Virus record (IMG/VR): IMGVR_UViG_3300003324_000872
Coordinates: 1 to 31,147 of that record
Length of the DNA: 31,147 nucleotides
Origin: a virus
Direction: 5' to 3' (one strand)
In this document: piece after piece, positions 6,963 through 26,352 of the stretch
How positions within the stretch are numbered: the stretch's first letter is position 1
Layout: every line of letters begins with the position of its first letter
Made by a program: the position numbers and the translations under genes
The notes under the pieces: model-generated
What the model was told of the DNA's origin: nothing
The model's input: the letters and a program-made list of their open reading frames with translations, nothing else
The model's database searches: none

Positions 6963-7367
6963 ATGAGCGCCGCTGAATTCCGCCGCGGTATCGAATCGTG
7001 GGTCGAGTCCGTCGAGACGGACAGTCACGCCGTGTTCGTCGCGGTTGCGACCGAAGTGCATCGATCCGTCACGGTCGGCTCGCCCGTCACGGGTGCGCCA
7101 GGTCAGCCCGTCCAGCGCGGCACTCTCCGCGACTCGTGGATCCCGGAATTCACGTCGCGCTGGACGTTCCAGACGACGACGAACCTGCCGTACGCGCTGC
7201 CGATCGAACTCGGGATCGGACCCTTTGGCCCGCTCACGCTGCGCTCGCAGGTCGGAGGCTTCCACTCGGTCGCGCGTACGCGCGTCGGCTTCCCGTCGAT
7301 TATCGCGTTCGTGATGGCGCAGCCGCGCAGTCGTTCGCCAGGTGGTACCGAAAGCGGTGCGCGATGA
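6963..7367 (+). CDS. Tail completion / HK97 gp10-like neck protein
   Basis: ATG 6963 has AGGAA about 7 nt upstream; 134 residues. The protein has an N-terminal helix (FRRGIESWVESVETDSHAVFVAVATEVHRSV), then GSPVTGAPGQPVQRGTLRDSW, LPYALPIELGIG and VGGFHSVARTRVGFPSIIAFVM. The Gly/Pro-rich 'gives way to residual ligand' loop followed by a YA.PIE strand is typical of gp10-type tail completion proteins. It ends in an ATGA overlap with the next gene, which fits a coupled neck-terminator pair. Confidence 0.68.
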   Translation: MSAAEFRRGIESWVESVETDSHAVFVAVATEVHRSVTVGSPVTGAPGQPVQRGTLRDSWIPEFTSRWTFQTTTNLPYALPIELGIGPFGPLTLRSQVGGFHSVARTRVGFPSIIAFVMAQPRSRSPGGTESGAR

Positions 7368-8029: not shown

Positions 8030-8089
8030 ACGCCATGACCAACACCATGAAGAACATCACCCATCTGACTTCTCTTATCGGAGCCTCGA

Positions 8090-10312: not shown

Positions 10313-13300
10313 ATGTCTGATCCGACCGGAGGGGGAACCGGCGGTAACGGCGGAACCATCTCTCGTCTCGGGCTCGTCGTCGACGCGTCTGGGATGGTGA
10401 CGGGTAGCACGCAGGGCAAACAAGCGCTTGACGTGCTGATGGCATCTGCCGATCAGGCCGAGCAGCGGATCCAAGGATTCTCGAAGAGCGCGACCGCCAG
10501 CGTTGGCTCGCTCGGCTCAGCGGTGCGGGAATCCAGCGCCACCGTCCAACGCGACATGGTGGCGGTCGGCAACGCTCTCGGCCAAGGATTCCGTCCCGAT
10601 ACGAACGCTGTGCGTGCCAATGCCATCACCGCGGCGGAACTCTTCGTCAAATCCGCGTCGGCCGAATTCGAGGCCGATCAGGTGCGGATTCGTGAGGGAT
10701 TGGCGCGCGGCTTTCTCTCGCCTGCCGAAGCACAGAAGGCAGGGCGTGAAGCTGCGCAGGCATATAATGCTGGGGTTCTGTCGCAGCTCGATAAGCTCGG
10801 CGCCGTTGGTCTGAACGTCGGAAATAGCGCGACGTACGCACAGCTCGCTGGGTCGATCAAGAGCATCGACAACGCGGCCGGCGGTGCGCACGCGAACGTC
10901 GGGCGGCTCGGCCAAGAGATTACGACGCTGGCGCGACGCACGCTCGATACGTCACCCGTCGTCGGGCAGTTCGGCTACCTCCTCGGGCAGTTCGCAGTCG
11001 GAAGCGTCGCGACGGTCGGCATTCTCGCCGGTGCTGCAGCGATCGGGCTGGCGTGGAATGCATTAACCGAAGACGCGCGCAAGGCGCGAGAAGAGCACGA
11101 GCATTTACTCGTCACGCTCGACGACATCGCCAAGCGGCGCCGAGAGACGACGATTGGCAATACCCAAGCGGCGATTCAGGCGGGACAGGACGAGCTCGAA
11201 AAGCTGCGCCAGAAGCTCAACGTGCAACAGATCCTCGCGCAGGGTGCCGCCGAGGGGGGCGCGCTCCCGTTTGTCAATCCCGACAAGACGAAGAAAGCCA
11301 TCGACGACTTGGTCGGAAAGATTGCGTCGGCCGAGGGGGAATTAAGGAATCTCTCGCAGCGAAGCGCCGAAGAGAGTGACCGCGCAACGACGAATTACCT
11401 GGCCGCGGTTGTAAAGGCCGGGCAGGCGACGACCACTCAGATCAACAACGCCAAGCTCCTTCTCAAAGGCTACCAAGACGCCTTTGCGGCGCTGCAGCGG
11501 CTTCATCCGGGCGATCTCGCGGGGCAGGCTGGCGTTCTCGAATCGATTCGGACGCTGCAAGACGCGCTGAATCCGCCTACAGCATCCAATCGCGAAGCGA
11601 CGCAACAGCGCTCACTCGAAAACTTGCTGGCGTTGGACGTTCAGCGCGTGGACGCGGCGCGCCGGCTCGCGGACGCCGCCGACCGCGGACGGGCGGCGTT
11701 CGATGCGGAGAACCACTCGCAGGAGCTCGCGCGCACGCTCTTGGAAGAACAGCAGCGCATCCTGCAGAGTCATCTCGACGTTCACGGAAAGATCCGAGCA
11801 GGCGAAGAGGCCCAAGTCCGGGCCGAGCAAGCGTCGGCAGCGGCCCGCATCGCTACGGTGGATGCCTTGCAGGCGCACGCACGGGCGGCGTTACAACTCG
11901 AAACCAATAACAGCGCTATCGCGGTCCTTCGGGCGAAAATCGCTGCCTACAACAACGTGGCCACGGCCGCGGACCTCGCAGGCGCGGCTATTCGTGACGC
12001 GGGCGTCGACGAGGAATACGCACGCAACGTCGCCATCGCGAACGCGGCGGCGAACGAGGCGGACCGGCGCGCGCTCCTCGCCAGCGCCGCAGCGCTCCGC
12101 GAGAAGACGCTCCAAGAGCACGCCGCGGCGGAAGCCGCACGCGCGCGGGCCGAGCTCTCGAAGACGATCAGCGAAGAAACCGGCCCAGCATTCTCGCGGT
12201 CGCTCGATCAGTCCATCCGTGAGCTGACGGATCGGCAAGCGCGGTATCAGCAGGACTTGGTCAGCATTTGGCGCGACGGGTTCGAGCGGATGGCGGCGGA
12301 CGCGTCCAAGTCGATGCACGCGCTCGCGGGCGACGTCGCTGATACGCTCGACCGTGCCCGCGCCCGCATTGCGTACGAAGGCAATAATGAGGGTGCGGGC
12401 TACAATGCCCTCGCACTTGGATCAATCGGGCTTGGCGCGGCTGTCTCTGGGTACGGCGTTGGGCGATCACTCGGCGGTGGCGTAGGCTCGGCAGTTGGCG
12501 GCGCCGCCACCGGTGCCCTCATCGGATCGGAGATTCTCCCTGGTATCGGAACACTGGTTGGCGGGCTCGCGGGACTCACCGGCGGGTTGCTCGGCGGAGC
12601 GGACGCCGCCCATCAACGCCAACGCGCGGAAGAACAACTGCGCCAATCGCTCACGCAAACGATCGAGCAGATCAAAGCGCAAGTAGGCGTTATCCCCGAA
12701 ATAGCCGGGCAGATCGCCGCGGTGCACCAGCAATTCGACGCGCTCCGGCATCAGGCCGAGCAGAGCGGCGGATCGTATGCGGACTTTCTCGACACCTTCC
12801 ACACGCTAAACGACCTCGAAATACGACGGATTGCGCAACTCGAAGAGGAAGCCGTAGCGCTCCGCGAATCGACGCGCCTCGGTCTGCAGGAACGCCTCCT
12901 GCGCGCCCAGGGCGATACGACCGGGGCCGATGCGCTCCGGCGCCAAGCGGATCAGCTGAAAGAGATCACCGACATCATCACGAAGTACGGTCCGTTCAGC
13001 GATCTCTTGCAGCTGCTGTTACAGACGCAGGACACCGAGAACGCGGCCGTCGAGAAGGCGAGGGCACTCGCAAACACGCGCGCGATTGAAGACGCCAATC
13101 TCGCCGCGCAGCGGGCGTACGCGAGCGGCCCGAACGGGACACAGCAACTCCGCGATACCGTGGACTTGCAAGCGCTCATCCTGCAGCACCAGCGCGATAT
13201 CGCCGACCTCGAGGCGCAGAAGGCGAGCGCGGAACTCATCGCCGCGACGCTGGCGAAGAACGCTGCCGAGGAAGCGGGGCTCGCGTGGCAACAGATGATC

Positions 13301-13945
13301 GCACAGGTGGATGCCGCCAACTCGGCCATTCAGCAGGACGTCAGATTGGGATTCAAAACACCCCAGCAGGCGTTCGCCGAAGAAGCGCTGAATTACGGCT
13401 TTGGATCGATGTCGATCGAGGATATCAAGAAGTACTACACGCCGTACTCCGGCACGCCGCTGACGGATTTCCAAAAGGAGACGAACAAGCATATCGACCA
13501 GCTCCTCACCGACTGGGAACGCTGGTTCGGCTCGGGGGCGAGTGGTGGCGGACTCGGGTCGTCGATCGGCCCGTCACCGGCCGGGCAGCGCGAAGCGATC
13601 ACGTACGCCGCGCAAGCGATGACGGAAGCGACGGGCAACAGGCTCGCGGACTACGAATCCGCGCAGCTCATTGAAGCACGGAAGCACACCGCGCTCCTCA
13701 CGGACATTGCGGGTGGCCGGCGCTTCGGCGGATCGGTGAACGACATTCGCCCGCTCGTGCCCGTGCCGAGCGTCATTCCCGGCGCAGCGGGTCCGTCGAA
13801 CATCACGATTCGCATCTACCAGCAGCCCGGCGAAGACGGTGGCGCGCTCGCGAAGCGCATCGCGTCTGAGGTTCAGGCGATTCTCGCCTCCGATGCGAAA
13901 GCGGACCTGCTCAGGAACGGTGACCCGCTCAAGGTCGGAGGCTAG
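10313..13945 (+). CDS. Tail tape measure protein
   Basis: ATG 10313, six bases after the chaperone stop; 1210 residues, the longest gene of the window. Long helical, Ala/Gln/Glu-rich segments (about residues 270-650 and 780-1030) are typical of the extended helical bundle inside the tail. Two hydrophobic regions, about 216-250 (VGSVATVGILAGAAAIGLAW) and about 698-763 with repeated GxxxG and GG patterns, look like the membrane-active parts used during DNA passage. At the lambda rule of roughly 0.15 nm per residue the tail would be about 180 nm, an upper estimate. No lytic transglycosylase or peptidase domain is evident. Confidence 0.92.
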   Translation: MSDPTGGGTGGNGGTISRLGLVVDASGMVTGSTQGKQALDVLMASADQAEQRIQGFSKSATASVGSLGSAVRESSATVQRDMVAVGNALGQGFRPDTNAVRANAITAAELFVKSASAEFEADQVRIREGLARGFLSPAEAQKAGREAAQAYNAGVLSQLDKLGAVGLNVGNSATYAQLAGSIKSIDNAAGGAHANVGRLGQEITTLARRTLDTSPVVGQFGYLLGQFAVGSVATVGILAGAAAIGLAWNALTEDARKAREEHEHLLVTLDDIAKRRRETTIGNTQAAIQAGQDELEKLRQKLNVQQILAQGAAEGGALPFVNPDKTKKAIDDLVGKIASAEGELRNLSQRSAEESDRATTNYLAAVVKAGQATTTQINNAKLLLKGYQDAFAALQRLHPGDLAGQAGVLESIRTLQDALNPPTASNREATQQRSLENLLALDVQRVDAARRLADAADRGRAAFDAENHSQELARTLLEEQQRILQSHLDVHGKIRAGEEAQVRAEQASAAARIATVDALQAHARAALQLETNNSAIAVLRAKIAAYNNVATAADLAGAAIRDAGVDEEYARNVAIANAAANEADRRALLASAAALREKTLQEHAAAEAARARAELSKTISEETGPAFSRSLDQSIRELTDRQARYQQDLVSIWRDGFERMAADASKSMHALAGDVADTLDRARARIAYEGNNEGAGYNALALGSIGLGAAVSGYGVGRSLGGGVGSAVGGAATGALIGSEILPGIGTLVGGLAGLTGGLLGGADAAHQRQRAEEQLRQSLTQTIEQIKAQVGVIPEIAGQIAAVHQQFDALRHQAEQSGGSYADFLDTFHTLNDLEIRRIAQLEEEAVALRESTRLGLQERLLRAQGDTTGADALRRQADQLKEITDIITKYGPFSDLLQLLLQTQDTENAAVEKARALANTRAIEDANLAAQRAYASGPNGTQQLRDTVDLQALILQHQRDIADLEAQKASAELIAATLAKNAAEEAGLAWQQMIAQVDAANSAIQQDVRLGFKTPQQAFAEEALNYGFGSMSIEDIKKYYTPYSGTPLTDFQKETNKHIDQLLTDWERWFGSGASGGGLGSSIGPSPAGQREAITYAAQAMTEATGNRLADYESAQLIEARKHTALLTDIAGGRRFGGSVNDIRPLVPVPSVIPGAAGPSNITIRIYQQPGEDGGALAKRIASEVQAILASDAKADLLRNGDPLKVGG

Positions 13946-13950
13946 CCCCG

Positions 13951-14730
13951 ATGGCCATCTGGGACTTCCTCCTCAAGATCAACGGCGTCGATTCCGAGAC
14001 GTACGGCTTCTACCCGGAATCGCTCGGCGGGCCGTGGGATACGCCCGAATTCGCGTATGACGAGCAACAGGTGCCGGAACACGATGGCCCCGTCCGCACG
14101 AGCGACGACCCGGAGCTCCAGCCCAAAGAATTCAAGATCGCGGGCACGCTCCTCAAAGACACCGAGACGAACCTCGAAAATGCGCTCGATGATTTGAAGT
14201 TCGCGCTCTCGGCGCACGACCTGACGATCATCGTGGGGAACCGCGAGACCCGGCAGCGCGTCGGGCGGCTCGTCGGTGCGATCGGTACGGTGACGAACGG
14301 CGATGCGATCACAGAAGTCCGGCTGGAATTCACCGTCCGCTGCGTCGATCCGATCGCGCGCGATACATCGGCGGCAACGCCCATCACCGGCTCAGCGGGC
14401 GTCGATCGCGACATCCCACTCGGCACGTGGCGCTCGTGGCCCGTCATCACGCACACGACCCCGACGTCGCCGCTGACTGAGACGTACAAGGACAAGGACG
14501 GCAACACCAAAGGCACGCCGACCGTCACGTTCCCCGGCTCGCCCACGACGGTCGTGGTCGACCACGGGAATCGCACGATCACCGTCGATGGCGTCCGGCA
14601 CGACGAATACCTGACCGCCGGCGACTTCTTCTGCTACGACCCGCGTGACGGCGACCGCAATACAAACCTGCCGACGATCCGCTGGTCATCGGGGACAGCG
14701 TCGTCCGTCCATACGAACAATTGGCTTTAA
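13951..14730 (+). CDS. Distal tail protein (Dit-like)
   Basis: ATG 13951 has GGAGG at 13937-13941 with a 9-nt spacer; 259 residues. The N-terminal half resembles the Dit ring domain: INGVDSETYGFYPESLGG, then a PVRTSDDPELQPKEFKIAGTLL strand pair, a helix ENALDDLKFALSAHDLTIIVG, and EVRLEFTVRCVDPIARD closing the barrel. The C-terminal half (TWRSWPVITHT, TVVVDHGNRTITVDGV, DFFCYDP) is the galectin-like domain pattern seen in longer Dit proteins. Dit forms the hexameric hub joining the tube to the tail tip. Position right after the tape measure supports it. Confidence 0.82.
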   Translation: MAIWDFLLKINGVDSETYGFYPESLGGPWDTPEFAYDEQQVPEHDGPVRTSDDPELQPKEFKIAGTLLKDTETNLENALDDLKFALSAHDLTIIVGNRETRQRVGRLVGAIGTVTNGDAITEVRLEFTVRCVDPIARDTSAATPITGSAGVDRDIPLGTWRSWPVITHTTPTSPLTETYKDKDGNTKGTPTVTFPGSPTTVVVDHGNRTITVDGVRHDEYLTAGDFFCYDPRDGDRNTNLPTIRWSSGTASSVHTNNWL

Positions 14731-14741
14731 CCGGAGGCGCT

Positions 14742-14918
14742 ATGTCGATCATCGGAATCTTGCTCACCATCGTGCTGATCGTGTTCGTCTGCTGGCTCAT
14801 CGCGACGTACATGCCCGCGCCGTTCAAGACACCCGCGCTCGCGATCGTTGTCCTCGTCGCCGTGGTGTGGTTGCTGACGCTTCTCTTTCCAGCGCTGACC
14901 AGTGCGCGCGTCGGATAA
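14742..14918 (+). CDS. 58-aa two-TM membrane protein, holin candidate (Thivi_2564-like)
   Basis: ATG 14742 has CCGGAGG about 5 nt upstream; 58 residues. Two hydrophobic segments, about residues 3-22 (IIGILLTIVLIVFVCWLIAT) and 33-53, are joined by a short loop with Pro and Lys, and no signal peptide beyond these. The plan and sequence feel close to the small 'Thivi_2564 family membrane protein' group. In this lysis context the best guess is a small class II holin, but other phage membrane proteins have the same shape. Confidence 0.7.
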   Translation: MSIIGILLTIVLIVFVCWLIATYMPAPFKTPALAIVVLVAVVWLLTLLFPALTSARVG

Positions 14919-15375
14919 GCGCGTGCTGTTCCTGCAGTCGCCGCCGTCCGATAACTCGTTCATGCGCATGGCCGAGTGGGCCGCGAGCGCATTGGGCGGG
15001 GCCGTGCTGGGATTCTTGGGCGCCGTGACGACGTTCCGGACGAAGCTCATCCTGAACGACAAAGCGCTCGAAGCCCACAAAGAGAAAGTCGAGTCGGAGC
15101 TCAAGCTCCACGCCGACGCGCTCGCGGGCCACCGGAACACCATCACCGCCGAAGCGATGCGGGCCGAGCGGGCGTTTCGCGATTCGCTCGAAGCGATGCG
15201 GCGCGACAGCGACGAGCGCCACGAAGAAAACCGCGCACAGCTCCGACTCATCAAACGCCAGCAATTCCTGACGCTCAAAGCGTTGGCCGATATCGCACGG
15301 GTGTCGGGCGCCGATAAACGCTTCGACGACGGCATCTGGAAAGCGCTCGCGGAGACGCAAGAAGACCCGAACTAA
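14902..15375 (+). CDS. Membrane-anchored coiled-coil protein in lysis cassette
   Basis: The frame overlaps the previous gene if GTG 14902 is used (157 residues). GTG 14923, with GGATAAG close upstream, or ATG 14962 (137 residues) are possible starts and I cannot choose firmly. A single hydrophobic segment (AASALGGAVLGFLGAVTTF) is followed by an amphipathic charged helix (NDKALEAHKEKVESELKLHADALAGH and RDSDERHEENRAQLRLIKRQQ), so the protein is an inner-membrane anchor with a long coiled coil. Between holin candidates it may be an antiholin, pinholin partner or inner spanin; none is established. Confidence 0.7.
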   Translation: MRASDKRVLFLQSPPSDNSFMRMAEWAASALGGAVLGFLGAVTTFRTKLILNDKALEAHKEKVESELKLHADALAGHRNTITAEAMRAERAFRDSLEAMRRDSDERHEENRAQLRLIKRQQFLTLKALADIARVSGADKRFDDGIWKALAETQEDPN

Positions 15376-15388
15376 GGACTCAGGACTT

Positions 15389-15787
15389 ATGGCGCCACTC
15401 ATTGTGAAACAGGAAGTGACGAAGCCCAACGGCACGACGGTGATGAAAGCCGGCCTCTCGCCGTGGGCGATTGTCGCCGCCGTCATCGCGGGCGTGCTCT
15501 TGGCACTCGCCGGCATCGCGTTCGACGCGATCGACGTCTACACCGCCGTCGCGAACAAGCAGATGCCCCACACCATCCATCTCTCGATCGGCCTGGGCGT
15601 CTTCGTGCTGGGCATCGTGGTCGCCTTCGGGCATTTCGTCCTGAATCCGCTCTATCAGCTCACGGTGATCATCGGCAATAGTTCGCTCCCGGTGATCGGC
15701 GGGCGACGGGCTGGCGATCCGCCAGCGGCGCAGAACAGCCCGCCGAACGAACCGCCGCCGGGCGTGCCCGGAGGGCCGCAGGGATGA
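15389..15787 (+). CDS. Two-TM membrane protein, holin candidate
   Basis: ATG 15389 has AGGAC about 5 nt upstream; 132 residues. Two membrane segments are seen: about residues 25-47 (WAIVAAVIAGVLLALAGIAF) and 63-86 (IHLSIGLGVFVLGIVVAFGHF). The last 30 residues are polar and Pro-rich (DPPAAQNSPPNEPPPGVPGG) and lie in the cytoplasm if the N-terminus does. The stop overlaps the endolysin start (ATGA), which ties expression of the two together as in many holin-endolysin pairs. This is the strongest holin candidate by position. Confidence 0.72.
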   Translation: MAPLIVKQEVTKPNGTTVMKAGLSPWAIVAAVIAGVLLALAGIAFDAIDVYTAVANKQMPHTIHLSIGLGVFVLGIVVAFGHFVLNPLYQLTVIIGNSSLPVIGGRRAGDPPAAQNSPPNEPPPGVPGGPQG

Positions 15788-16290
15788 CGGCGCTGACGCT
15801 CAAACTCCCGCCGCCGCCGCCGGAGCCGCCCGCGAACAAGAGCATCACGTGTCTCGCGCCGCGCTTCGCGGATCGCGTCGCGGCGGTCATCAGATCGATG
15901 CAGGAGCTGGGACTTGAACCCGTGATTGCGGAGGCGTGCCGGTCCGACGAGCGGCAGGCATGGCTCTTTGGGTTTGGCCGCGACTACGACGATGGCCGGG
16001 GCGTGGTGACCAACGCGCCGGACGGCCGATGGAGCTGGCACCGCTTCGGCCTCGCCGTCGATATCGTCGATCGACATCGGGGTTGGGACGCGCCGTCGAC
16101 ATTTTGGAAGACGCTCGGAGCGACCGCGATCGAGCATGGGCTCGCGTGGGGCGGGGCATGGCCGCGCTTTCCTGACAAGCCACATATCCAATGGGGACCG
16201 CCGATGCGCCAGTCGCCGTCGTCGCGTGCGTGGGAACTATTGGAGGCGGGTGGTCTGCAAGCGGTGTGGCGCGAGGTGCACGCCGCGTGA
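15784..16290 (+). CDS. Endolysin, M15-type Zn peptidase (VanY / L-Ala-D-Glu peptidase-like)
   Basis: ATG 15784 overlaps the holin-candidate stop; 168 residues. The active-site pattern of peptidase M15 is clear: SWHRFGLAVDI provides His86 and Asp93, and DKPHIQW provides His134 and the likely base nearby (Asp131, or Glu117 from the preceding helix). The N-terminal part has the family's ERQAWLF helix after VIAEACRSDERQ. It would cut peptide cross-links or stems of peptidoglycan. There is no signal peptide; a Pro-rich N-terminal stretch (PPPPPEPP, residues 9-16) precedes the domain, so release through a holin is expected. No separate cell-wall binding domain is present, as usual for Gram-negative endolysins. 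Confidence 0.88.
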   Translation: MTALTLKLPPPPPEPPANKSITCLAPRFADRVAAVIRSMQELGLEPVIAEACRSDERQAWLFGFGRDYDDGRGVVTNAPDGRWSWHRFGLAVDIVDRHRGWDAPSTFWKTLGATAIEHGLAWGGAWPRFPDKPHIQWGPPMRQSPSSRAWELLEAGGLQAVWREVHAA

Positions 16291-16949
16291 GCGAGATCCC
16301 AGGGATGATGAGCCGCCGCACGGCGACAATCATTGGGGCGATCGTCGCGGCGGTCGTCATCCTTGGCGTGTTCGCGTTCTGCCGCCACGAGCCGACGCCG
16401 CTCCCACCCGCCGAGCAAACGTCGCTCGATTCGCTCGCCGCCTCCAAGCCCGACTATCAGGCGAAACGCGACACGCTCGTCCTTCGGGAAACCACCTTCG
16501 TGCGCCAATCGCGCGAGGATCGCGTGAGAGCGACCCGCGCCGAGCACGCGGCGGATTCGTTGCGCGACCTCGCGAACCGCTGGCAGGCGGCCGCCATCGC
16601 ACAAGGCGATACCGTGACGGCGTGGTACGCCATCGCCACGGTCGAACGGCATGAAGGCGACTCGCTCCGCGCCGCGAATATCGCGCTGCATCGGGCGGCG
16701 ACGGCGGATTCCGTCGCGCGGAGTGCGGCGGATGCGCGCGCCGAGTCTGCCGAGCGGCGGCTGGTGGCGTCCGACGACTTGAACCAACGACTCGCGCGCG
16801 ATCTCCGGCAGGCCTCGCCGCCGTGCCGAATCCTCTGGACGCTCGGTTGCCCGTCCCGAAAAACCTCCTTCGTTGTTGGCGTGGTCGTCGCGAGCGCCGG
16901 CGCCTACGTGGTCACGCATCGCTCGCAGTTCTCAGGGGTGTTGCCATGA
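16287..16949 (+). CDS. Spanin-like membrane protein with coiled coil
   Basis: GTG 16287 overlaps the endolysin stop (GTGA) and has GAGGTG 8 nt upstream; 220 residues. ATG 16305 or 16308 are alternatives. The N-terminal segment (IIGAIVAAVVILGVFAF) is a membrane anchor, then a long polar helix follows (DSLAASKPDYQAKRDTLVL, RVRATRAEHAADSLRDLANRW, ARAESAERRLVASDDLNQRL), and a second hydrophobic stretch (SFVVGVVVASAGAYVVTH) lies near the C-terminus after two Cys residues. The position directly after endolysin and the single-pass plus coiled-coil plan fit an Rz-type inner spanin; the C-terminal hydrophobic segment is unusual and could make it a unimolecular spanin-like bridge. Confidence 0.62.
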   Translation: MSEIPGMMSRRTATIIGAIVAAVVILGVFAFCRHEPTPLPPAEQTSLDSLAASKPDYQAKRDTLVLRETTFVRQSREDRVRATRAEHAADSLRDLANRWQAAAIAQGDTVTAWYAIATVERHEGDSLRAANIALHRAATADSVARSAADARAESAERRLVASDDLNQRLARDLRQASPPCRILWTLGCPSRKTSFVVGVVVASAGAYVVTHRSQFSGVLP

Positions 16950-18664
16950 GCCCGTCCATGATGCGCACGGTCAGATACGTGCTCGGCGCCGCGCTGTTTG
17001 CCTTTCTCGCCATTCCGCTCTCGGCGCAGACCGATACGAGCTCGGCAACGATCCTCAAGGATTTGCGCCGCTTCTGCGCCACGACGACGGGTAAGAAGTA
17101 CAGCTATCTCTGCGACGATACGACATTGGCGAAACGGCTCGTCGTAGCGCCCGCTCCATCACCCTCTCCATCACCAGCTCCATCGCCGACTCCATCGACC
17201 GGCGTCGCCACCGTCGCCGAGCTGCCGCGCGTCGTGCCGCCGAGCCGGGACCCCTACCCTGCGAAGCCCTGCACCGTCACCGTGCCGAGCGGCGACGCCA
17301 ACGCAGCAATTGCCAACGCGCGCGGCGGTTCGGTGGTGTGCCTCACGGCTGGCGCGACCTACGCGCCGATCCGCTTGCCCGTTCGTGCGAGCGGCGATAC
17401 CGGCTGGCTCGTGATTCGCTCGTCGGGCGCGCTGCCGAGCGAAGGCACGCGCATCGCCCGCTCCGCGGTATTGCCGAGAATTGTGACGCCGCTCAACGGG
17501 CAACCCGCGTTGACGATCGCGCCGGGCGCGTCCGGCTACGTCCTTCGCGGGGTGGAGTTCACGACCGCGCCGAGCGTCACGCAGACCTACGCGCTCGTCG
17601 AGCTGGGCGACGGCCAAAGTCCAACGCTCCCGGCGCGGCTCATCGTCGCGCAGTCGTATATCCACGGCTCGGCAACGGGTGAGATGCAGCGGTGTGTGGC
17701 GCTCAACGCCGCCTCGGTCGCCATCGTGGACTCGTATCTCGGCGACTGTCACGGGAAGGGCTACGACAGCCAAGCCATCGGCGGCTGGTCCGGCACCGGT
17801 CCGTATCTCATCGAGAACAACACGCTCGAAGGCGCGGGCGAGAATGTGATGCTCGGCGGCGCGGCACCGGCCGCAGAGGGGTTGGTCGCATCCGATGTGA
17901 CCATTCGACGCAACCACATCCTGACGCCGATCGCGTGGAAAGGCGTGTGGAGTAAGAAGAACCTGCTCGAGCTCAAGACGTGTCATCGCTGCCTCGTCGA
18001 GGCGAATGTGTTGGACGGCTCGTGGACCGACGCCCAGACGGGGTTCGCGTTCGTCGTCAAGTCGTCCACGGACGCGCCGTTCCACGGCATGAACACTGAT
18101 GACGTGACGATCCGCGCGAACCGCGTGACGCACATCGGCGCGGGATTCAGCGTCACGTCGCGCGAAGGCCAGTACCCGCTCGCCTATCCGACCGAGCGTA
18201 CGGCGCGCGTGACCATCGAAGGCAATTACGTCGATTCCGTGAACGTCGCCCCCTTTGTCGGCGCAGGCCGGATGCTCTCGACAGGCGGTGTCTCGAAAGG
18301 CGTCACCGATCTCATCGTGCGCGGGAACACGATGCTGGGCCAGAATCTCGGGCAGTTCATCACACTCTGGGCCGATCCGGGACCAGCGCCCGGCATCGAG
18401 CGGTTCGACTACCAGTCGAATCTCGTGTCGGAAGGCGAGTACGGCATTGGGGGCGACGGCGCGCCGGGATTCGGGAACGCGGCGCTCGACTACCTGACGA
18501 CTCCCTACACGTTCGCGCACAACGTGCTCGTCCACACCTCCGCGAACAGTTGGACGTATCCCGCGACGACGACGCTCGTGTCGTCGCCCGCCCAAGCGCC
18601 GTCCGGCGCGGGCGCTGATCTCGCCGCCGTGCTTTCTGCCACCACAGGAGTGGTCATCCCATGA
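16946..18664 (+). CDS. Exported right-handed beta-helix protein with two-Cys N-terminal module
   Basis: ATG 16946 overlaps the previous stop and has CAGGGG upstream; 572 residues. Residues 7-27 are a signal peptide (basic start, hydrophobic core YVLGAALFAFLAIPLSA, cleavage probably after Ala27). Residues 36-61 hold a module with Cys44 and Cys56 (DLRRFC, KYSYLCDDTTL). A Pro/Ser-rich linker follows (about 67-83). Residues about 100-560 show repeated beta-helix rungs (VVCLTAGATYAPI, VTIRRNHIL, VTIRANRVTHIGAGF, VTIEGNYVDSV, LIVRGNTMLG) as in pectate-lyase-like proteins. It could be a polysaccharide-degrading or -binding protein sent to the periplasm or surface of the infected cell. No catalytic residues can be assigned. 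Confidence 0.75.
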   Translation: MSPSMMRTVRYVLGAALFAFLAIPLSAQTDTSSATILKDLRRFCATTTGKKYSYLCDDTTLAKRLVVAPAPSPSPSPAPSPTPSTGVATVAELPRVVPPSRDPYPAKPCTVTVPSGDANAAIANARGGSVVCLTAGATYAPIRLPVRASGDTGWLVIRSSGALPSEGTRIARSAVLPRIVTPLNGQPALTIAPGASGYVLRGVEFTTAPSVTQTYALVELGDGQSPTLPARLIVAQSYIHGSATGEMQRCVALNAASVAIVDSYLGDCHGKGYDSQAIGGWSGTGPYLIENNTLEGAGENVMLGGAAPAAEGLVASDVTIRRNHILTPIAWKGVWSKKNLLELKTCHRCLVEANVLDGSWTDAQTGFAFVVKSSTDAPFHGMNTDDVTIRANRVTHIGAGFSVTSREGQYPLAYPTERTARVTIEGNYVDSVNVAPFVGAGRMLSTGGVSKGVTDLIVRGNTMLGQNLGQFITLWADPGPAPGIERFDYQSNLVSEGEYGIGGDGAPGFGNAALDYLTTPYTFAHNVLVHTSANSWTYPATTTLVSSPAQAPSGAGADLAAVLSATTGVVIP

Positions 18665-20451
18665 CACGAACACGCTCGCTCGCTCTCATCCTCGTACTCG
18701 CCGCCTGTGCGCCACCGCTCACGCCTGTTGCCGCCCAGCAGCCCGATGTCGCGCGCGCGAAGATCGACTCGGCGCGCGTGGACCTTCGGCAGTACTGCAA
18801 AACGAAAAACGCAGTCAAATACGTCTGTCCCATGGATACGCTCCGGCTCAAGCAGGCGTCCGACGCGCTCGTCGCGCCTGCGCCTGTGCCGCCCAATCCG
18901 ACTCCTACTCCTACGCCGACTCCTACGCCGACTCCTACGCCGACGCCGACCGGCAAGCCATTGGCGATCATCGGCTCGTCCACGGCGACCGTGGGGCGGA
19001 ACACCTACCTCTCATTCGCCGATACCGCGCACGTCATCGGGTTTAGCGGCGTGCTGCGCGTCTCCGGGCTTCCCGCTGGCGTCACGGCGTCCGTGATCGA
19101 GGAAGGGTGCTGCGGCGTGCCGAGCGATGGGCTCTGGACGTTTTACTCCGGCGCGGAAGGCGCGCTCAAACTCTCCGTCAGTGCCTCGACGGTGCCGGGG
19201 AAGTACAGCGTCACGCTCGCCGTGACGGACGCCGCGGCGAACACGGTGAGCAAAACGATCACGCTGGCGGTGCAAGCGATGCCGAGCGCGATCGCGGCCC
19301 AGCCGTACACGACGCCCGCGCCGATTGCGACGCTCGCGCAGTGGGAATCGATCATGGTCACCCAGGGGAAACGCTGGTGCGACCCGCAGTACATCGCCAT
19401 CTGGGACGGCTCGGTCTACTACTACGACGGCACGAAGGTCTATTTCCAAATCGGCGACTACACGCGCGACACCAGCTGGAACCGCTGCGCGCAGATGGTC
19501 CTCACGACCTACCGCGACGGCTACGTGATCGCGTCGAACGGCGTGCCGGGCTATCGCGTGTTCCCGGATGGGCTGGCGTGGGACTTCGCGCGGAATCACG
19601 TCGCGGCCGACACGCAGGCCATGAACGTCCTCGTGCAGCATTCGAGCAAGACGTACACGAAATGGATGGCCTCATGGGCCTACTCGCGCGAAACCGCGTA
19701 CGGTCTCCGCAATCTGCTCTTGTCGAAGGACGCGGGCATTGCGGTCTCTCCGAGCGATATCGAGATCGAGACCGAACTGGCGCTGGGGCATATCGATCAG
19801 TGGTTCGTGAGCAAGACGGCCGATTATCTCCGGCCCTTCATGGTCGCGCTCACCTGCGAAGCGCTAATCACCGCGTACGAGCACACCCCCGACCCGCGGA
19901 TTCCCGCCGCGGTCAAGATGGCGGCGGATTCGATGTTCCCGAAATTCTGGCTCACGGCCGATCAATCGTTCATGTACACGGATCGCGTGGCGAACGATGG
20001 CACGGGCGATACCGGGGCAGCGCCAGATTTGAACCTCCTGATCGCACCGCTGTACGGCTGGGTCTACAAGCAAACGGGCGATCCGAAATACCGCACCGTC
20101 GGCGACTCGGTCTTCAATGCCGGGGTGCGCGCGGGCGATCCATTTCAGGGCAAGCAGTTCAGCCAAGCGTATCGCGACAGCTTTAGTTATCTCGCATGGC
20201 GCGCGGGGGCCAGTGCAGGCGCTAACGCGCCGCTCGTCGCCCAATCGCGCCCGCGGGCCGCGTCGCGCTCGGGTGCTGCGTCGGTGCCAGCGCGCGCCCC
20301 GACTGCGGCCCCGACTACGGCCATGCGGCGCGCGGCGATGCGACCGGAAGTCATCGGCGAGAACGGACGTCGGGTCGTCGTCCCGGCCACGGCGTCGCCA
20401 CCGGGGAAAGGACCAACCAGTACGACGCGCATCAAAGTGAAGAAACCATAA
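18661..20451 (+). CDS. Exported protein: two-Cys module, Ig-like domain, alpha-helical catalytic-like domain
   Basis: ATG 18661 overlaps the previous stop; 596 residues. The N-terminus has a lipobox-type signal (LVLAAC, Cys16), so it may be a lipoprotein; AAQ at 24-26 allows normal cleavage instead. Residues 35-61 repeat the neighbour's two-Cys module (DLRQYC, KYVCPMDTL; Cys46, Cys56). A PT-repeat linker follows (about 79-97), then an Ig-like domain (about 100-207: LSFADTAHVIGFSGVLRVSG, GKYSVTLAVTDAAANTV). Residues about 215-520 are helical with Trp/Tyr-rich strands (LAQWESIMVTQGKRWCD, YSRETAYGLRNLLL, VALTCEALITAYEHTPDPRI, LNLLIAPLYGWVYKQTGDPKY), the pattern of alpha/alpha-toroid glycan-active enzymes. 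The C-terminal tail is basic and Ala/Pro-rich. Function unknown. Confidence 0.72.
   Translation: MTRTRSLALILVLAACAPPLTPVAAQQPDVARAKIDSARVDLRQYCKTKNAVKYVCPMDTLRLKQASDALVAPAPVPPNPTPTPTPTPTPTPTPTPTGKPLAIIGSSTATVGRNTYLSFADTAHVIGFSGVLRVSGLPAGVTASVIEEGCCGVPSDGLWTFYSGAEGALKLSVSASTVPGKYSVTLAVTDAAANTVSKTITLAVQAMPSAIAAQPYTTPAPIATLAQWESIMVTQGKRWCDPQYIAIWDGSVYYYDGTKVYFQIGDYTRDTSWNRCAQMVLTTYRDGYVIASNGVPGYRVFPDGLAWDFARNHVAADTQAMNVLVQHSSKTYTKWMASWAYSRETAYGLRNLLLSKDAGIAVSPSDIEIETELALGHIDQWFVSKTADYLRPFMVALTCEALITAYEHTPDPRIPAAVKMAADSMFPKFWLTADQSFMYTDRVANDGTGDTGAAPDLNLLIAPLYGWVYKQTGDPKYRTVGDSVFNAGVRAGDPFQGKQFSQAYRDSFSYLAWRAGASAGANAPLVAQSRPRAASRSGAASVPARAPTAAPTTAMRRAAMRPEVIGENGRRVVVPATASPPGKGPTSTTRIKVKKP
18901..18950 (+). 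repeat. Tandem 12-bp repeat encoding Thr-Pro linker
   Basis: The unit ACTCCTACGCCG is repeated about three times exactly, with partial and variant units (ACTCCT, ACGCCGACGCCG) at each end. It encodes the Thr-Pro linker between the two-Cys module and the Ig-like domain. Repeat number may vary by slippage without breaking frame, because the unit is a multiple of three. Confidence 0.85.
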
Positions 20452-20463
20452 CGGAGACCTGAT

Positions 20464-21204
20464 ATGTCGATTGCTTCGAGCGACCTCCTCTGCATGGACT
20501 CGGCGAACGTGCCGAGCGATGACGCCTCGACGTCGGGCGGCGCGATCTCAACCACGTCGCGGCCGGACCTCACCCAATTCTCCGCCAACGCCGTCGCCGC
20601 CGTTGTGTCGGATGGGGCCGATACGCGCACGGTGACCGTGACCGGCCGCCTCGCGACAGGCGCCGTCGATACCGAAGTCCTCACGCTCAACGGCACGACG
20701 GAAGTCGTCGGCGCCAAGACGTGGGAGCGGATTCAGAAGATTGTCGCCTCGGCGACGAGCGGCACGCGGACCGTCACGTTCCGTCAGGGCTCGGGCGGTA
20801 CGACGCGCGCGACGATTCTGCCGAACGAAACGACCCGGCATATCAGTTTTCAGAACGCGTCGAGCGATCCGTCGACGGGGAAGACGCGCTACGAAAAGAT
20901 CTTCTGGAAGAACGCGCACGGCACGCTGTCGCTCCTGTCGGCCGCAGTCACGCTGACGACCGATGCCGCCTCGAATATCCAGATCGGTCTCGACACGGCC
21001 GTCGACGCGTCCGTGTCCGTCGCGAACAGGCTCACCGCACCCGGGAGCGTCACGTACTCGGACGACGGGGTCGCGCTCACGGTACCAGGCGCCAATCTCG
21101 CGGCCGGCTCAGCGATCGGCGTCTGGATTCAGCAAACGCTCGCGAGCGGCGCGGCGGCCACGAAATCGACTTACACGACCAAACTCTCGGGCTCGAGCAC
21201 GTGA
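20464..21204 (+). CDS. Probable virion structural protein (tail-tip region)
   Basis: ATG 20464 has CGGAGAC about 8 nt upstream; 246 residues. The protein is beta-rich, low in charge and full of Thr, Ser and Ala (FSANAVAAVVSDGADTRTVTVTGRL, AVDTEVLTLNGTTEVVG, TRTVTFRQGSGGTT, IGVWIQQTLASGAA). This style, without signal peptide, is typical of phage tail or baseplate decoration proteins. It begins a run of structural genes after the exported proteins. No named family is recognised. Confidence 0.7.
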   Translation: MSIASSDLLCMDSANVPSDDASTSGGAISTTSRPDLTQFSANAVAAVVSDGADTRTVTVTGRLATGAVDTEVLTLNGTTEVVGAKTWERIQKIVASATSGTRTVTFRQGSGGTTRATILPNETTRHISFQNASSDPSTGKTRYEKIFWKNAHGTLSLLSAAVTLTTDAASNIQIGLDTAVDASVSVANRLTAPGSVTYSDDGVALTVPGANLAAGSAIGVWIQQTLASGAAATKSTYTTKLSGSST

Positions 21205-21228
21205 CCTCTTGACTCAGGACACATCACT

Positions 21229-21624
21229 ATGACGAAACCCACTGAACCAATCACGCGCGAGCGCGCCATGGAGCTCGCGGCACATCCGGAGCAGGTGACG
21301 ACCCGCGCCGAAGCGGAAGCGGTCGTGCGCTCCACCGGCCGCACGTGCAAAGGCGTGCCGCGTGACGCTGAACGCACGGCCGCGCGCGCGCTGCTCGCTG
21401 AGGGTCGCCATGAGGAGGCGTCGGCGATGGACGACGCCTCCTATCGCCATCCGGCGGGCCACCCGAACGCCGGGCAGTACGCGTGCGGCCACAACATCAA
21501 CGATCTCATCGTCGCGGGGCCGTTCGATGGGCAATCGCACGAAGTCACCTGTCCGACGTGCGGGCGCACCATGCGCTACACCGCGCCGTACTTCACCAAG
21601 GCGACCGTTCAGCCCAACGGATGA
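21229..21624 (+). CDS. Hypothetical protein with putative zinc-binding site
   Basis: ATG 21229 has CAGGACA upstream; 131 residues. The N-terminal half is a helical Ala/Glu/Arg-rich region (RERAMELAAHPEQV, RAEAEAVVRSTGRT). The C-terminal half carries YACGHNIND and, about 25 residues later, TCPTCGRTM, giving Cys-x-His and Cys-x-x-Cys as a possible zinc ligand set. Such small zinc-ribbon proteins occur in phages as regulators or virion accessories; neither is supported here. It sits between two structural genes in the same direction. Confidence 0.65.
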   Translation: MTKPTEPITRERAMELAAHPEQVTTRAEAEAVVRSTGRTCKGVPRDAERTAARALLAEGRHEEASAMDDASYRHPAGHPNAGQYACGHNINDLIVAGPFDGQSHEVTCPTCGRTMRYTAPYFTKATVQPNG

Positions 21625-21673: not shown

Positions 21674-22966
21674 ATGGCTGACAACAGTTCACAGGGCGGC
21701 TCTGACACGATCCGCGACAAGGATCGCGCAGGCGTCAAGACGCAGATTGTCGGGCTCGATGTTGGCATTGGCACAGGGACTGAAGCGCTGATGTCGGACA
21801 CGAACCCGCTCCCCGTCAAGGGCGGCTGGCCGACGGCCGTAACGGCCTCGTGGTCCAACGCGACGAGCGCCAACACGCGGGCACAGATCAGTACGAACGG
21901 GATGGCGACCGTCGTCGTCGTCATCACGGGCTCGAGCCTCAACGGCGGGTTAATAAGTTTTCAGAAATCGAACGACAACGGGACGACCTGGTGTGCGGCG
22001 ACGGCGATCCGGGAGTCGGTGGCGGCCGATTTCCCCGGGGCCGGCCCCGCCGCGTCGTTTGTCTACCAAAGCATTTCCGGGACGACGATCGCATCGGCGA
22101 CGTGGATGTTTTTGGTCGATGTCGCGGCGTTCGACAAGTTCGCCGTCATCCTGACGAGCACAATCACGAGCGGTACGGCGGCCCTGACGATTACGGCGAC
22201 GGCGATACCGGGATTGGTCCGCGCGCTGATGTATTGGGACGAGAGTGGCAGCCAAGTCCTGCAGGTGCGGCACGGCGCGGGCGCACTCGGCATCGGCAAG
22301 GCGGAAGACGGCGCGTCTTCTGATGGCGATGTCGGCGCGGCCGTCTTGGCGGTCCGGAAAGCAACGCCGGCCGATACGTCCGGCTCCGACGGCGATTACG
22401 AGTTTCTGCAAATCAAGGATGGCCGACTGTACACGCGGGCCAACTTGGAGATTGGCGGCACGGCGGTCGACGGCAACTCGGGCAACAAATCCGCGCAGAC
22501 CGTTCGCGTCGTCCTCGCGACGGACCAGCCGCAGCTCACCAACGCGCTCAAAGTCGACGGCTCGGCCGTCACGCAGCCCGTATCGGCCGCCGTGGGCGCG
22601 CCGGTGTTCGTCACGCCCACGCCCTCGACGACCGGTGGCTGGACGAAGTGGAACAACTCGAACGCCGCGCTCAAGGCGACGAAAGCCCAGGTCAAGGGTT
22701 CGGCCGGCGTGCTCGGACCGATGATCATCACCAACGAAGACACGACGGTCAATTTCGTCCAGATATTCGACGCCGCGTCCGCCTCGGTGACTGTCGGTAC
22801 CACCGTTCCAGATTGGACGCTCGAGATTCCGCCGCTGTCGGCCATGGTGATCCCTGCCGACTGCGGGATGAACATGGCCAACGGCATCACCGTGGCCGCG
22901 ACGACGACGCGCGGCGGGAACACCGCGAACACCAACGGCGTCACGATCAACGTCGCCTACAAATAG
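21674..22966 (+). CDS. Virion structural protein, tail fibre/baseplate-like
   Basis: ATG 21674 has GGGAG about 12 nt upstream; 430 residues. The N-terminus (DTIRDKDRAGVKTQIVGLDVGIGTGTEALMS followed by DTNPLPVKGG) is similar to conserved starts of phage structural proteins that attach to a baseplate. Then come beta-rich sections: WSNATSANTRAQISTNGMATVVVVITGS with LISFQKSNDNGTTW (a jelly-roll-like pattern), YEFLQIKDGRLYTRANLEIGGT, and a C-terminal beta domain with TVNFVQIFDAASASVTVGTTVPDW and VIPADCGM. It has no signal peptide. Role: probably a fibre-base or receptor-region protein. Confidence 0.75.
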   Translation: MADNSSQGGSDTIRDKDRAGVKTQIVGLDVGIGTGTEALMSDTNPLPVKGGWPTAVTASWSNATSANTRAQISTNGMATVVVVITGSSLNGGLISFQKSNDNGTTWCAATAIRESVAADFPGAGPAASFVYQSISGTTIASATWMFLVDVAAFDKFAVILTSTITSGTAALTITATAIPGLVRALMYWDESGSQVLQVRHGAGALGIGKAEDGASSDGDVGAAVLAVRKATPADTSGSDGDYEFLQIKDGRLYTRANLEIGGTAVDGNSGNKSAQTVRVVLATDQPQLTNALKVDGSAVTQPVSAAVGAPVFVTPTPSTTGGWTKWNNSNAALKATKAQVKGSAGVLGPMIITNEDTTVNFVQIFDAASASVTVGTTVPDWTLEIPPLSAMVIPADCGMNMANGITVAATTTRGGNTANTNGVTINVAYK

Positions 22967-22978
22967 CCGGAGGATCGC

Positions 22979-23650
22979 ATGGCGACGGCGACGTTCGACG
23001 GGCCGACCAACGCGACGTGGCTCGCGCCCTCGGGCGTGACGTCCGTGCAAATCGAGTGTTGGGGCAAGGGCGGCGACGGCGGCTCCCCGAACAACAGCAA
23101 CGGCGCCGGCGGTGGCGGTGGTGGTGGCGGCTATGCCAAGAAGAACACGTTCACCGTCATTCCGCACGGGATCTACACGATCGCCTTCAACACGGGCGGC
23201 GCGGATACCGCGTTCTTGGCGCTCGACGGCTCGACCGTCGTGTGTCGCGCGGCGCCGGGCGTCGCCGGCAATAACACCACGGGTGCAAAAGGGACCGGGG
23301 GCGCTGGCGTCACTGGCGACGTCTTGCACTCCGGTGGCGATGGCGGCGTCGGCACGGTCGGCTCCTTCGGCGGTGGTGGCGGCGAAGCGGGCGGTGTAAC
23401 GACGACCGGCGCCGCAGGGTCTGGCGCGGCGGCCGGATCGGGCGCGAATGCCGATGGCGGCGACGGCGGCGCGGGGAAATCCTCACCACAGGGCAATGGC
23501 ACGGGCGGCACGGGCCCGGGCGGCGGTGGTGGGGGCGGGCTCCGCACGTCGAGCGGCACGCGGACCGGCGGGAGTGGCGCGGCGGGCCGCGTGACGATCA
23601 CGTACACGCTCACCGGGCCGTTTCCGCTGAGCGCGTGCGGGTCCGGCTGA
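22979..23650 (+). CDS. Glycine-rich tail adhesin-like protein
   Basis: ATG 22979 has CCGGAGGA about 6 nt upstream; 223 residues. A short N-terminal beta part (ATFDGPTNATWLAPSGVTSVQIECWGKGGDGG) is the usual opening of the glycine-rich domains found at phage fibre tips and in some bacterial surface proteins. The rest is dominated by Gly runs (GAGGGGGGGGYAKK, SFGGGGGEAGG, GPGGGGGGGLRTS) separated by short variable segments, as in polyglycine-II sandwich adhesins such as that of phage S16, ending in GAAGRVTITYTL. It would be a host-recognition protein. Function is inferred from architecture. Confidence 0.75.
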   Translation: MATATFDGPTNATWLAPSGVTSVQIECWGKGGDGGSPNNSNGAGGGGGGGGYAKKNTFTVIPHGIYTIAFNTGGADTAFLALDGSTVVCRAAPGVAGNNTTGAKGTGGAGVTGDVLHSGGDGGVGTVGSFGGGGGEAGGVTTTGAAGSGAAAGSGANADGGDGGAGKSSPQGNGTGGTGPGGGGGGGLRTSSGTRTGGSGAAGRVTITYTLTGPFPLSACGSG

Positions 23651-23670
23651 CGGTGGTGAGGACGCGTTAA

Positions 23671-26352
23671 GTGTCGCTCCTCCTCTTACTCAGCGGTGGC
23701 GGTGGTGGTGGGGGCGGTGGCTCAGGCTACGCCCTCCCCTTTAAGATCGACCACACGATGCTCCGCACCGGGAGCGCCGATCTCACGGGCTTCTGGTTTG
23801 TCTTCAACAAGACCGCGGACGAGCTCAAGTCGGTCTCGAACGGCGGCAATGTTGTCGACGGGAACGACATTCATTTCACGTCCGATGATGCCGCGACGGA
23901 ATGGTCGTTCCGACTGCTGAAATGGGATGGGACGACCGGACAGGTCATCGCGCTGGTACAAGCCGACATTACCGCCGCTGCCGACGTCCCGTTTCACATC
24001 GCCTTTGGCGACGCGGCGATCACGGTGTCGATGTCGGGCGACATGGACACGTCGTTCGCCGTCGCTGCGCTCGTCGAGGACGACGGTGCTGGCGGGATCA
24101 GCGGCGCCGATCTCTCGGCGAACGGCAATGATGCGTCGAGCGTCAGCGGGACGCTGGCGACAGGCTCGGTCTACAAGGCCGTCAGCCTGAACGGATCGGG
24201 CGATAAGATCACCGTGCCGGACGATGCCACCTTATCGCGGCCCGGCGCGGGGATTCGGCTCGCGGCGAGCGTCAACCGGACGAGCACGGGCCGCACCGGC
24301 GACGGCATCATCCACAAGTACGGCGCGGCTGGCCACGAGTACATCCTCGGCTTTTTCAGCGACGACAAGATCTACGCGTGGGTCTACGATAGTAACGGCA
24401 ACGCGTATCAGGGCCGCACGGCACCATCATCGAGCTATACGACGGGCGCGCTCCACCGCGTCTCAATGGAGTACGACGGCGGACCGTCAACGAGTGCGGT
24501 GCGGATTTTCGTCGATGGGACGCGCGTTGATGATAGCGATTTCGGTCCGGTGGGAGCGTTCGCGCAGTTGCGCGACACGGCGCAAGATGTTCTGATCGGC
24601 GACGGCGGTGAGGGGCTTGGGCCGAACACGTTCCAAGGCACCATCGATACGGTCTTCATCTCCGACTTCCGCGACGCGTCGGGCGACTGGGATTACGCCG
24701 AGTGGAACTCGATCGCGAACCCGTCAACATTCGTCATCGCGAACGGCAGTCTCATCACGTACGGCGGCGGCACTACTGTAGACGCCTCGCAGGGCACCGG
24801 TTCGGAATCCCTCGTCGGCGTCGCGCAAGTGCAAGCCTCGGGCGACGTCAGCCTCGTCGGTATCGCGACGACGACGGATAGCATCGCAGGCGAGTCCACG
24901 GGCGCGGTCTCTCAAACGAAAGCCATCGGTGACGAGACCACGCTCGGGCTCGCGGCGTCGCTCGCCCCAGCGGACGAATCGTTGCTCGCGCTCGCGGTTT
25001 CGGATGGGCTCGCGGGCGAGTCCACGATACCTGCCCAGCAGACGAGCGGTGGCGCCGACGAAAGCCTCATCGGCTCGACGCAATCAGTCGGCACGGCCGA
25101 TGAGCAGCTGCTGGGCATCGCGAACACCGATGCGATTGCCGACGAGACCCTAACGGGTATGGCGGCGAGCGATCTCACCGGAAATGAATCGGCGGGCACC
25201 GTCGCGCAAAGCGTTAGCGTCCCGGACGAGGCGCTGATCGGACTCGACGCGATCGGCAGCGCCGCCGACGAATCCTTGCTCGGCGTGGCCGCCCCTGACG
25301 CGCTCGACGGCGAAGCCCTGGCGGGCATCGAAGCCGTCGACGTGCTCGCGGACGAGCCGGCCGGCGCCGTCACGCAATCCGCGACAACTGGCGACGAATC
25401 GCTCATCACGATTGAAGCCGCTACGCTCGCGGGCGACGAAGTCCTTACGGGGCTCGATGCCAACGCGCTCGCACCCGACGAGAACCTGCTCGGCGTGGCG
25501 TCGACCCTCGTCACAGGGGACGAGTCGCAGGCCGGCGTCGCAGTCGAACAGAGTCTGGCCACCGGCACAGAATCTGTCATCGCGCTCGAACTCGCGACGG
25601 GAGCCGCCGCCGAGTCCCTGGTGGGCTTGGCGTCGTCGCTGGTCGTTCCGGACGAATCGACGGTCGCGGCGGAAGTCACACAGACCCAAAGCACGACGAC
25701 GGAATCCCTCACGGGCGTCGAAAGCGCAGGCGCAGGCGCCGATGAAGTAATCGCCGGCGTCGCGACGCCGAAAGCCTCGGCCGACGAGTCCCTGACGACG
25801 GCCGCGCAGTCCGGTAGTCTCACGGATGAATGGCTCGCGCGCGTCGAGCAAACCGATACCGCGGCCGTGGAATTCCTGCTGGGACTCGCTGCGACGATCC
25901 TCGCGGCCGATGAATCGGCGAGTGTCGTTTCGGTGACGCGCGCGACCGCGGACGAATCGCTTATCGCCGTCCTCTCGACGTCGGATGTCGCGGACGAATG
26001 GCTCCTGGGCATTGCGGCGCAACTCGCGACCGACGCCGAAGGGCTCGCCGGCGTCGCGGCCATTCTCGTGATCAGCGACGAATCGCGACGCACGGTTCAG
26101 GCGATCGTGATCAGTCGCGCGCGCGCGATCGCGCCAGGTCTCGCGCTCACGATCGTTGCGCCGATGAATCCCGTCACCGCCGTTGCACCGGCCCTGTCGA
26201 TCACGGACGTCGGCGCCGAGCAACCCATTCACGCGATCGCGGTCGCACTCGAGGCGCGCGGCATTACCCCGCCGAACGTACTCGATGCTATTGTTGCATC
26301 CAACCCGATGACGCCCGTCACCACGGACATTGACGCTGAGGCACTCGCATGA
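23671..26352 (+). CDS. Large tail fibre-like protein: DUF2341/LamG-like head and 14-residue repeats
   Basis: GTG 23671 has GAGGA 8 nt upstream (23658-23662); no in-frame ATG occurs at a better place. 893 residues. After MSLLLLLSGGGGGGGGGSG, residues about 23-130 resemble DUF2341 (FWFVFNKTADELKSVSNGG, DIHFTSDDAATEWSF, DGTTGQVIALV), and about 150-345 a concanavalin/LamG-like lectin domain (VSLNGSGDKITVPDDATLS, VRIFVDGTRVDD, FQGTIDTVFISDF). Residues about 376-805 are about thirty 14-residue repeats, consensus DESLLGVA followed by six variable residues. A short C-terminal part ends the protein. The N-terminal part is paralogous to the end of the gene at 27448. A long fibre or stalk with a carbohydrate-binding head is a reasonable guess. 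Confidence 0.78.
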   Translation: MSLLLLLSGGGGGGGGGSGYALPFKIDHTMLRTGSADLTGFWFVFNKTADELKSVSNGGNVVDGNDIHFTSDDAATEWSFRLLKWDGTTGQVIALVQADITAAADVPFHIAFGDAAITVSMSGDMDTSFAVAALVEDDGAGGISGADLSANGNDASSVSGTLATGSVYKAVSLNGSGDKITVPDDATLSRPGAGIRLAASVNRTSTGRTGDGIIHKYGAAGHEYILGFFSDDKIYAWVYDSNGNAYQGRTAPSSSYTTGALHRVSMEYDGGPSTSAVRIFVDGTRVDDSDFGPVGAFAQLRDTAQDVLIGDGGEGLGPNTFQGTIDTVFISDFRDASGDWDYAEWNSIANPSTFVIANGSLITYGGGTTVDASQGTGSESLVGVAQVQASGDVSLVGIATTTDSIAGESTGAVSQTKAIGDETTLGLAASLAPADESLLALAVSDGLAGESTIPAQQTSGGADESLIGSTQSVGTADEQLLGIANTDAIADETLTGMAASDLTGNESAGTVAQSVSVPDEALIGLDAIGSAADESLLGVAAPDALDGEALAGIEAVDVLADEPAGAVTQSATTGDESLITIEAATLAGDEVLTGLDANALAPDENLLGVASTLVTGDESQAGVAVEQSLATGTESVIALELATGAAAESLVGLASSLVVPDESTVAAEVTQTQSTTTESLTGVESAGAGADEVIAGVATPKASADESLTTAAQSGSLTDEWLARVEQTDTAAVEFLLGLAATILAADESASVVSVTRATADESLIAVLSTSDVADEWLLGIAAQLATDAEGLAGVAAILVISDESRRTVQAIVISRARAIAPGLALTIVAPMNPVTAVAPALSITDVGAEQPIHAIAVALEARGITPPNVLDAIVASNPMTPVTTDIDAEALA
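24796..26110 (+). repeat. Coding region of about thirty degenerate 14-residue (42-bp) repeats
   Basis: Reading the translation in 14-residue steps gives about thirty aligned units with Asp/Glu-Glu-Ser/Ala-Leu at the start, then Leu/Ile/Val, Gly, a hydrophobic residue and Ala; a few units are 13 or 16 residues. At the DNA level GACGAATC or GACGAGTC recurs but third positions vary, so the repeats are old or under selection at protein level rather than recently copied. Confidence 0.85.

Follow-up and report, generated by a model that had tools for sequence, protein, structure and literature searches.

Phage depolymerases are mostly familiar as components of the virion, and the beta-helix fold is common to tailspikes. 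RbmB of Vibrio cholerae cuts Vibrio polysaccharide and thereby disrupts the biofilm (PMC11637428), and two-component spanins consist of an inner-membrane protein paired with an outer-membrane lipoprotein (PMC6139136). The phage locus described here, comprising two adjacent genes that we call P0002 and P0001, bears a partial likeness to each of these systems. P0002 resembles the PL31/PL6 alginate lyases and RbmB in its fold and its export signal and probably in a glycan-acting place, but it differs from them in its low identity (~11%), in matching no CAZy-type family by sequence, in being a gene of a phage lysis/tail operon and in carrying an extra N-terminal two-cysteine segment; we regard the likeness to RbmB as a functional analogy, not as membership. 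The beta-helix fold is also that of tailspike depolymerases, unlike which P0002 and P0001 have export-signal-like N-termini and no virion-attachment domain that we could recognise. With the Rz/Rz1 spanins, the locus shares an upstream gene for a transmembrane and coiled-coil protein placed after the endolysin, as well as a lipobox in P0001, whereas P0001 and P0002 themselves are large multidomain proteins. Among the accessory genes of environmental phages, exported proteins of the beta-helix and helical kinds are found repeatedly.

The phage and its lysis region

The window, that is, the whole stretch of DNA analysed, is one complete IMG/VR record (IMGVR_UViG_3300003324_000872, 31147 bases) and represents a siphophage fragment. 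It begins inside a portal gene (DUF4055, E 5.5e-12), whose counterpart in the related record L003 starts about 185 residues earlier, and continues with a MuF-like gene (E 2.5e-4, below the curated cut-off), capsid E, tail-tube, a long ORF in the tape-measure position (10313-13945), the lysis genes and the tail appendages. The lysis genes, all on the plus strand, comprise a small hydrophobic protein that is a holin candidate by hydropathy and weakly matches only a function-less family (14721-14918), an endolysin of the M15/VanY-like peptidase type identified by family matches (15784-16290) and a protein that appears spanin-like in its sequence features, namely, an N-terminal transmembrane segment, a coiled coil and a C-terminal hydrophobic segment (16305-16949). 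No family match was found for this spanin-like gene, and a search for an embedded Rz1-like lipobox ORF within it returned none.

P0002 and P0001 lie directly 3' of the endolysin and spanin-like genes and before the tail appendages, in the late operon, which agrees with the place given to them by an earlier sequence-only reading of this DNA. The start of P0002 overlaps the stop of the spanin-like gene as ATGA, the start of P0001 overlaps the stop of P0002 in the same manner, and AGGGG/AGGAG-like sites precede both starts. Searches with capsid and portal identified only L003 and L005 as relatives of this phage; both lack the two-cysteine module, and neither contains a pair of the P0002/P0001 type, the L003 record stopping just past its endolysin.

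Several other features of these genomes were observed. In the head operon, an ORF of the window (1195-1719) and its L003 equivalent (6195-6686) have a start resembling that of proteasome/HslV-type Ntn hydrolases (AWDGxTLAADKR); the L003 copy matches Pfam Proteasome below the cut-off (E 0.014) and the window copy gave no match. The closest phage relative (L003/L004) carries an apparent diversity-generating retroelement at 4876-8192 of L004 (reverse complement), with an ORF for a reverse transcriptase (7173-8192), a small accessory ORF (6429-6857) and a repeated NNVRGNSN-type segment, which both terminates a tail protein and occurs within a short ORF preceding the reverse transcriptase; the lysis/tail region of the window, as far as it was read, contains no such cassette. 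Among the tail appendages, the ORF at 23671-26352 contains a long degenerate repeat array (ADESLxGxA..., ~14 residues per unit) at 24780-26110. An S-V-[SA]-N-G-G domain, which we take to resemble DUF2341, is common to this ORF, to the ORF at 27448-30888 and to a protein (18883-22065 of L008) of a prophage in Gemmatirosa, and the second of these ORFs is similar to the prophage protein at E 2e-5.

The two bodies and their relatives

Translation recovered both ORFs where the sequence-only reading had placed them, and the layout it described, of an export signal followed by a two-cysteine segment and a proline-rich linker, is present in both. Signal peptides were called from hydropathy and a lipobox pattern only; the hydrophobic export signals terminate in A-Q in both proteins (...IPLSAQ in P0002 and ...TPVAAQ in P0001).

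P0002 (16946-18664, plus strand; 572 aa) has a predicted signal peptide (16946-17029; probable cleavage ...LSA/QT) that does not fit the PROSITE-type lipobox pattern, and the two-cysteine module is followed by a Pro/Ser-rich linker (17138-17224) and a body (17225-18661) with the motif IENNTLEGAGENVMLGG at 17810-17860. The pattern of this motif, ENNxLExxxENxMxGG, presumably characterises one family of beta-helix proteins that are exported and come from environmental samples, and scanning IMG/VR for it gave three records, two of which contain the same protein. P0002 aligned with the protein of L033 at 30% over 401 aa (E 6e-42) and with that of L031 at 33% over 204 aa (E 3e-20), and an alignment of three P0002-type relatives displayed invariant E, N, K and R residues; the conserved positions of P0002 include K338, E342 and K344. 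The L031 and L033 relatives, like P0002, have signal-peptide-like N-termini and lie in the late region with a small membrane gene adjoining, but both lack the two-cysteine module, and the L031 protein (also in L032) differs further in its He_PIG Ig repeats and long extra C-terminus. The structural model of P0002, built from three sequences, is a right-handed beta-helix (mean pLDDT 60, pTM 0.67; core pLDDT about 70-93 over much of residues 101-300), for which the nearest Foldseek structures were, at the ~11% identity given above, the alginate lyase 6kfn (E 9e-6) and the matrix lyase RbmB 9ozl (E 1e-4). On the strength of this model, P0002 is assigned a pectin-lyase-like right-handed parallel beta-helix fold. 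Searches of Pfam, PHROG and NCBIfam with the P0002 sequence returned nothing at E <= 1. We infer that P0002 is probably a Sec-exported polysaccharide lyase or glycosidase.

P0001 (18661-20451, plus strand; 596 aa) combines a lipobox signal peptide (LAAC, Cys16, by pattern match), the two-cysteine module, a (PT)n linker, an Ig-like domain and a helical body. The Ig-like domain (residues 101-205; 18961-19275, plus strand) is indicated by weak Pfam and PDB sequence matches, by modelled strands and by Ig/cadherin-like fold matches, which were the only matches returned by the fold search. The helical body (19273-20196, plus strand), which was compared with the (alpha/alpha) toroid of barrel-type glycan enzymes, matched no known fold; its model is all-helical over residues 225-517 with pLDDT mostly below 70 (mean of the body model, 44.5), and a profile of the body gave no convincing match in PDB. 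Neither body matched an enzyme family in Pfam, NCBIfam or PHROG. Peptide patterns detected no direct relatives of P0001 or P0002 in IMG/VR, searches of phage records with both proteins recovered no relatives, and a profile of the P0001 body with its homologue gave no match in IMG/VR and related records. P0001 is probably a glycan-binding or glycan-acting protein.

The homologue of P0001 came from a search of 72,556 plasmid records, in which the sole match was plasmid 1 of Gemmatirosa kalamazoonensis (NZ_CP007129.1). The match (22596-24293; 32% over 133 aa, single-comparison E 6e-9; best over residues 393-512 of P0001) sits in a prophage whose portal, MuF-like (E 2e-39) and tape-measure-position genes also match the window. 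Like P0001, the prophage protein has the helical body, a signal-like N-terminus and a place between an endolysin-position gene and a tail-appendage gene, but it has no two-cysteine module, proline-rich linker or lipobox. The relationship to this prophage makes Gemmatimonadota the likely host phylum; thus, the phage of the window probably infects these soil bacteria. A third weak match of P0001 on the same plasmid fell inside an alcohol-dehydrogenase-like gene and was rejected. Genome contigs searched with P0001 and its Gemmatirosa homologue yielded none, and Gemmatirosa itself was not recovered by this search either. Positions 1-100000 of NZ_CP007129.1 (L008, L012) contain two tandem, near-identical prophage copies ~53 kb apart with predicted proteins 99-100% identical, which may represent a genuine tandem lysogen or have arisen in the assembly.

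The export-signal-like N-termini bear directly on the idea that the two bodies are virion tail spikes or fibres and that their hydrophobic N-termini play no part in export. The location of the pair between lysis genes and tail appendages and the beta-helix fold would suit such proteins, and the long extra C-terminal region of the L031 relative could be tail-like. However, signal-like N-termini occur in P0001, P0002 and 4/4 of the relatives examined, and exported proteins could not enter virions that are assembled in the cytoplasm; we consider a virion role improbable.

P0001 is the only ORF within 14000-21300 that has a lipobox, and it may therefore be an outer-membrane lipoprotein tethered to that membrane. 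The same observation could make P0001, or its lipidated N-terminus, the o-spanin partner of the upstream spanin-like protein. Usual o-spanins are far smaller than 596 aa, whereas P0001 has this length and bears further domains, an Ig-like one and a helical body, in addition to its lipobox; moreover, the Gemmatirosa homologue lacks the lipobox, P0002 has the module with no lipobox, and P0001 also has a regular leader-peptidase site (VAA/Q). An o-spanin role for P0001 thus appears highly improbable.

The shared two-cysteine segment

The segment common to both proteins follows the pattern D-L-R-[RQ]-[FY]-C-x6-K-Y-x(1-3)-C. In P0002, the module comprises residues 29-64 (17030-17137, plus strand) and the mature N-terminus reads DLRRFC-ATTTGK-KY-SYL-C (Cys44 and Cys56); in P0001, it comprises residues 27-68 (18739-18864, plus strand) and reads DLRQYC-KTKNAV-KY-V-C (Cys46 and Cys56). 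The cysteines are separated by 11 and 9 residues, respectively, as the earlier reading had counted, and the DTL that it placed after them is exact in P0001 (MDTL) but takes the form DDTTL in P0002. The C-x6-KY spacing is the same in both proteins and the second cysteine is residue 56 in each. Both models draw the module as short helices at low confidence.

Local alignment of the two post-leader segments scored 43 against a shuffle mean of 19.6 (sd 4.1); this score was reached by 4/20,000 shuffles and, in a repeat run with the cysteines kept, by 15/50,000, so the two copies align better than shuffled sequences. These probabilities are optimistic because the module was defined after the data had been seen. 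When the cysteines were masked, the score fell to 31, a value reached by 409 of 50,000 shuffles. The best score against the module was 38 among 813 other ORFs and 33 among the post-leader segments of 49 putative exported or membrane-anchored Gemmatirosa proteins, whereas 3 of 1176 pairwise comparisons of those Gemmatirosa segments reached 43. A degenerate DNA motif of the module, which was derived from the window's own two copies, matches the window at two places and was absent from all 100 shuffles. The match is short and leans on the cysteines, and its strength above chance is modest. The bodies that follow are unrelated, as had been proposed (alignment score 41 against a shuffle mean of 42.9). 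DNA-level similarity between the 5' ends of the two genes is confined to the proline-rich linker; the pair is therefore not a recent duplication, a possibility that we considered and discarded.

It is accordingly worth asking whether the module is an ordinary post-leader sequence, its resemblance in the two proteins being partly chance or partly a linker habit of Gemmatimonadota-type exported proteins. The masked-cysteine score, the Gemmatirosa pairs that reach 43, the choice of the motif after inspection of the data and its absence elsewhere all point in this direction, but the few shuffles that reach the score with cysteines kept, the identical C-x6-KY spacing with the second cysteine at 56 and the lower score of the best other ORF argue against it, and we find this explanation rather doubtful. 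To judge from the sequences, the module is probably real, short and old.

A slightly altered form of the degenerate motif was scanned against 2.9 million viral contigs of IMG/VR and matched 17 places, none of them leader-proximal in an exported protein or behind a signal peptide. All 17 were rejected: most lie in one family, which we take to be sulphur-assimilation-reductase-like, and the others in short or unrelated frames. Module tblastn matches in phage and plasmid records had E >= 2 and were treated as chance, the module had no match in Pfam or PDB, and a module profile search of Gemmatirosa plasmids 1 and 2 and five viral records gave zero candidates. Thus, across IMG/VR (strict motif), phage and plasmid records, Pfam and PDB, we found no third copy and no protein besides P0002 and P0001 that aligns to the module.

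The sequence-only reading had suggested that the module may be an anchor or delivery tag that targets different cargo enzymes to one place. As a targeting tag, it would bind a single partner, which could be peptidoglycan, a protein of the outer membrane or the spanin-like neighbour. The same module stands in the same position, before the same type of linker and unrelated bodies, in genes that are adjacent and coupled at their starts, and it has no DNA-level similarity, so the resemblance has seemingly been kept. Nevertheless, no third carrier was found and homologues of both bodies lack the module, and we judge a targeting tag quite unlikely. The body relatives in other phages look exported without the module, which is therefore dispensable for export there. 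Neither a tag for many cargoes nor a new system, both of which had been envisaged, finds support in these results. Since both bodies recur in exported phage proteins that lack the module, the pair gives the impression of a minor variation at one locus, and a delivery system is not demonstrated; in these data, the variant formed by the shared N-terminus is represented by two genes, both in a single genome.

Proposed role in phage release

We give about an even chance to the proposal that P0002 and P0001 are accessory proteins, late and exported, with which a siphophage acts on the host's own surface glycans at lysis. According to this proposal, both proteins would be translated with the lysis cassette through ATGA coupling and then exported from the cytoplasm. 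P0002 would probably cut, and P0001 would probably bind or cut, the envelope polymers or exopolysaccharide of the host itself, and the loosened surface polymers would allow the progeny to get out and away more easily. We infer that the two-cysteine segment forms a small helical unit, probably with a single closing disulphide, which may serve as a spacer or anchor and, together with the proline-rich linker, would keep the bodies off the membrane or envelope. Against this proposal stand the lack of a Pfam, NCBIfam or PHROG enzyme family for either body, the poor model of the P0001 body, the lack of such a pair in L003 and L005, and the use of beta-helix folds by virion tailspikes as well. A bolder version, in which the segment is a phage-made exported anchor that brings different glycan-acting enzymes to a single site of the envelope, possibly in concert with the spanin-like neighbour, and so couples polymer removal to lysis, seems to us distinctly improbable.

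The public viral collections searched contain next to no relatives of the phage group represented by the window, which probably infects Gemmatimonadota. The shared N-terminal segment would matter only if further carriers appear. Exported proteins that are made with the lysis genes and occupy a matching position in distantly related phages that infect one group of hosts, by contrast with depolymerases carried on the virion, would strip the host's own polymers at release.
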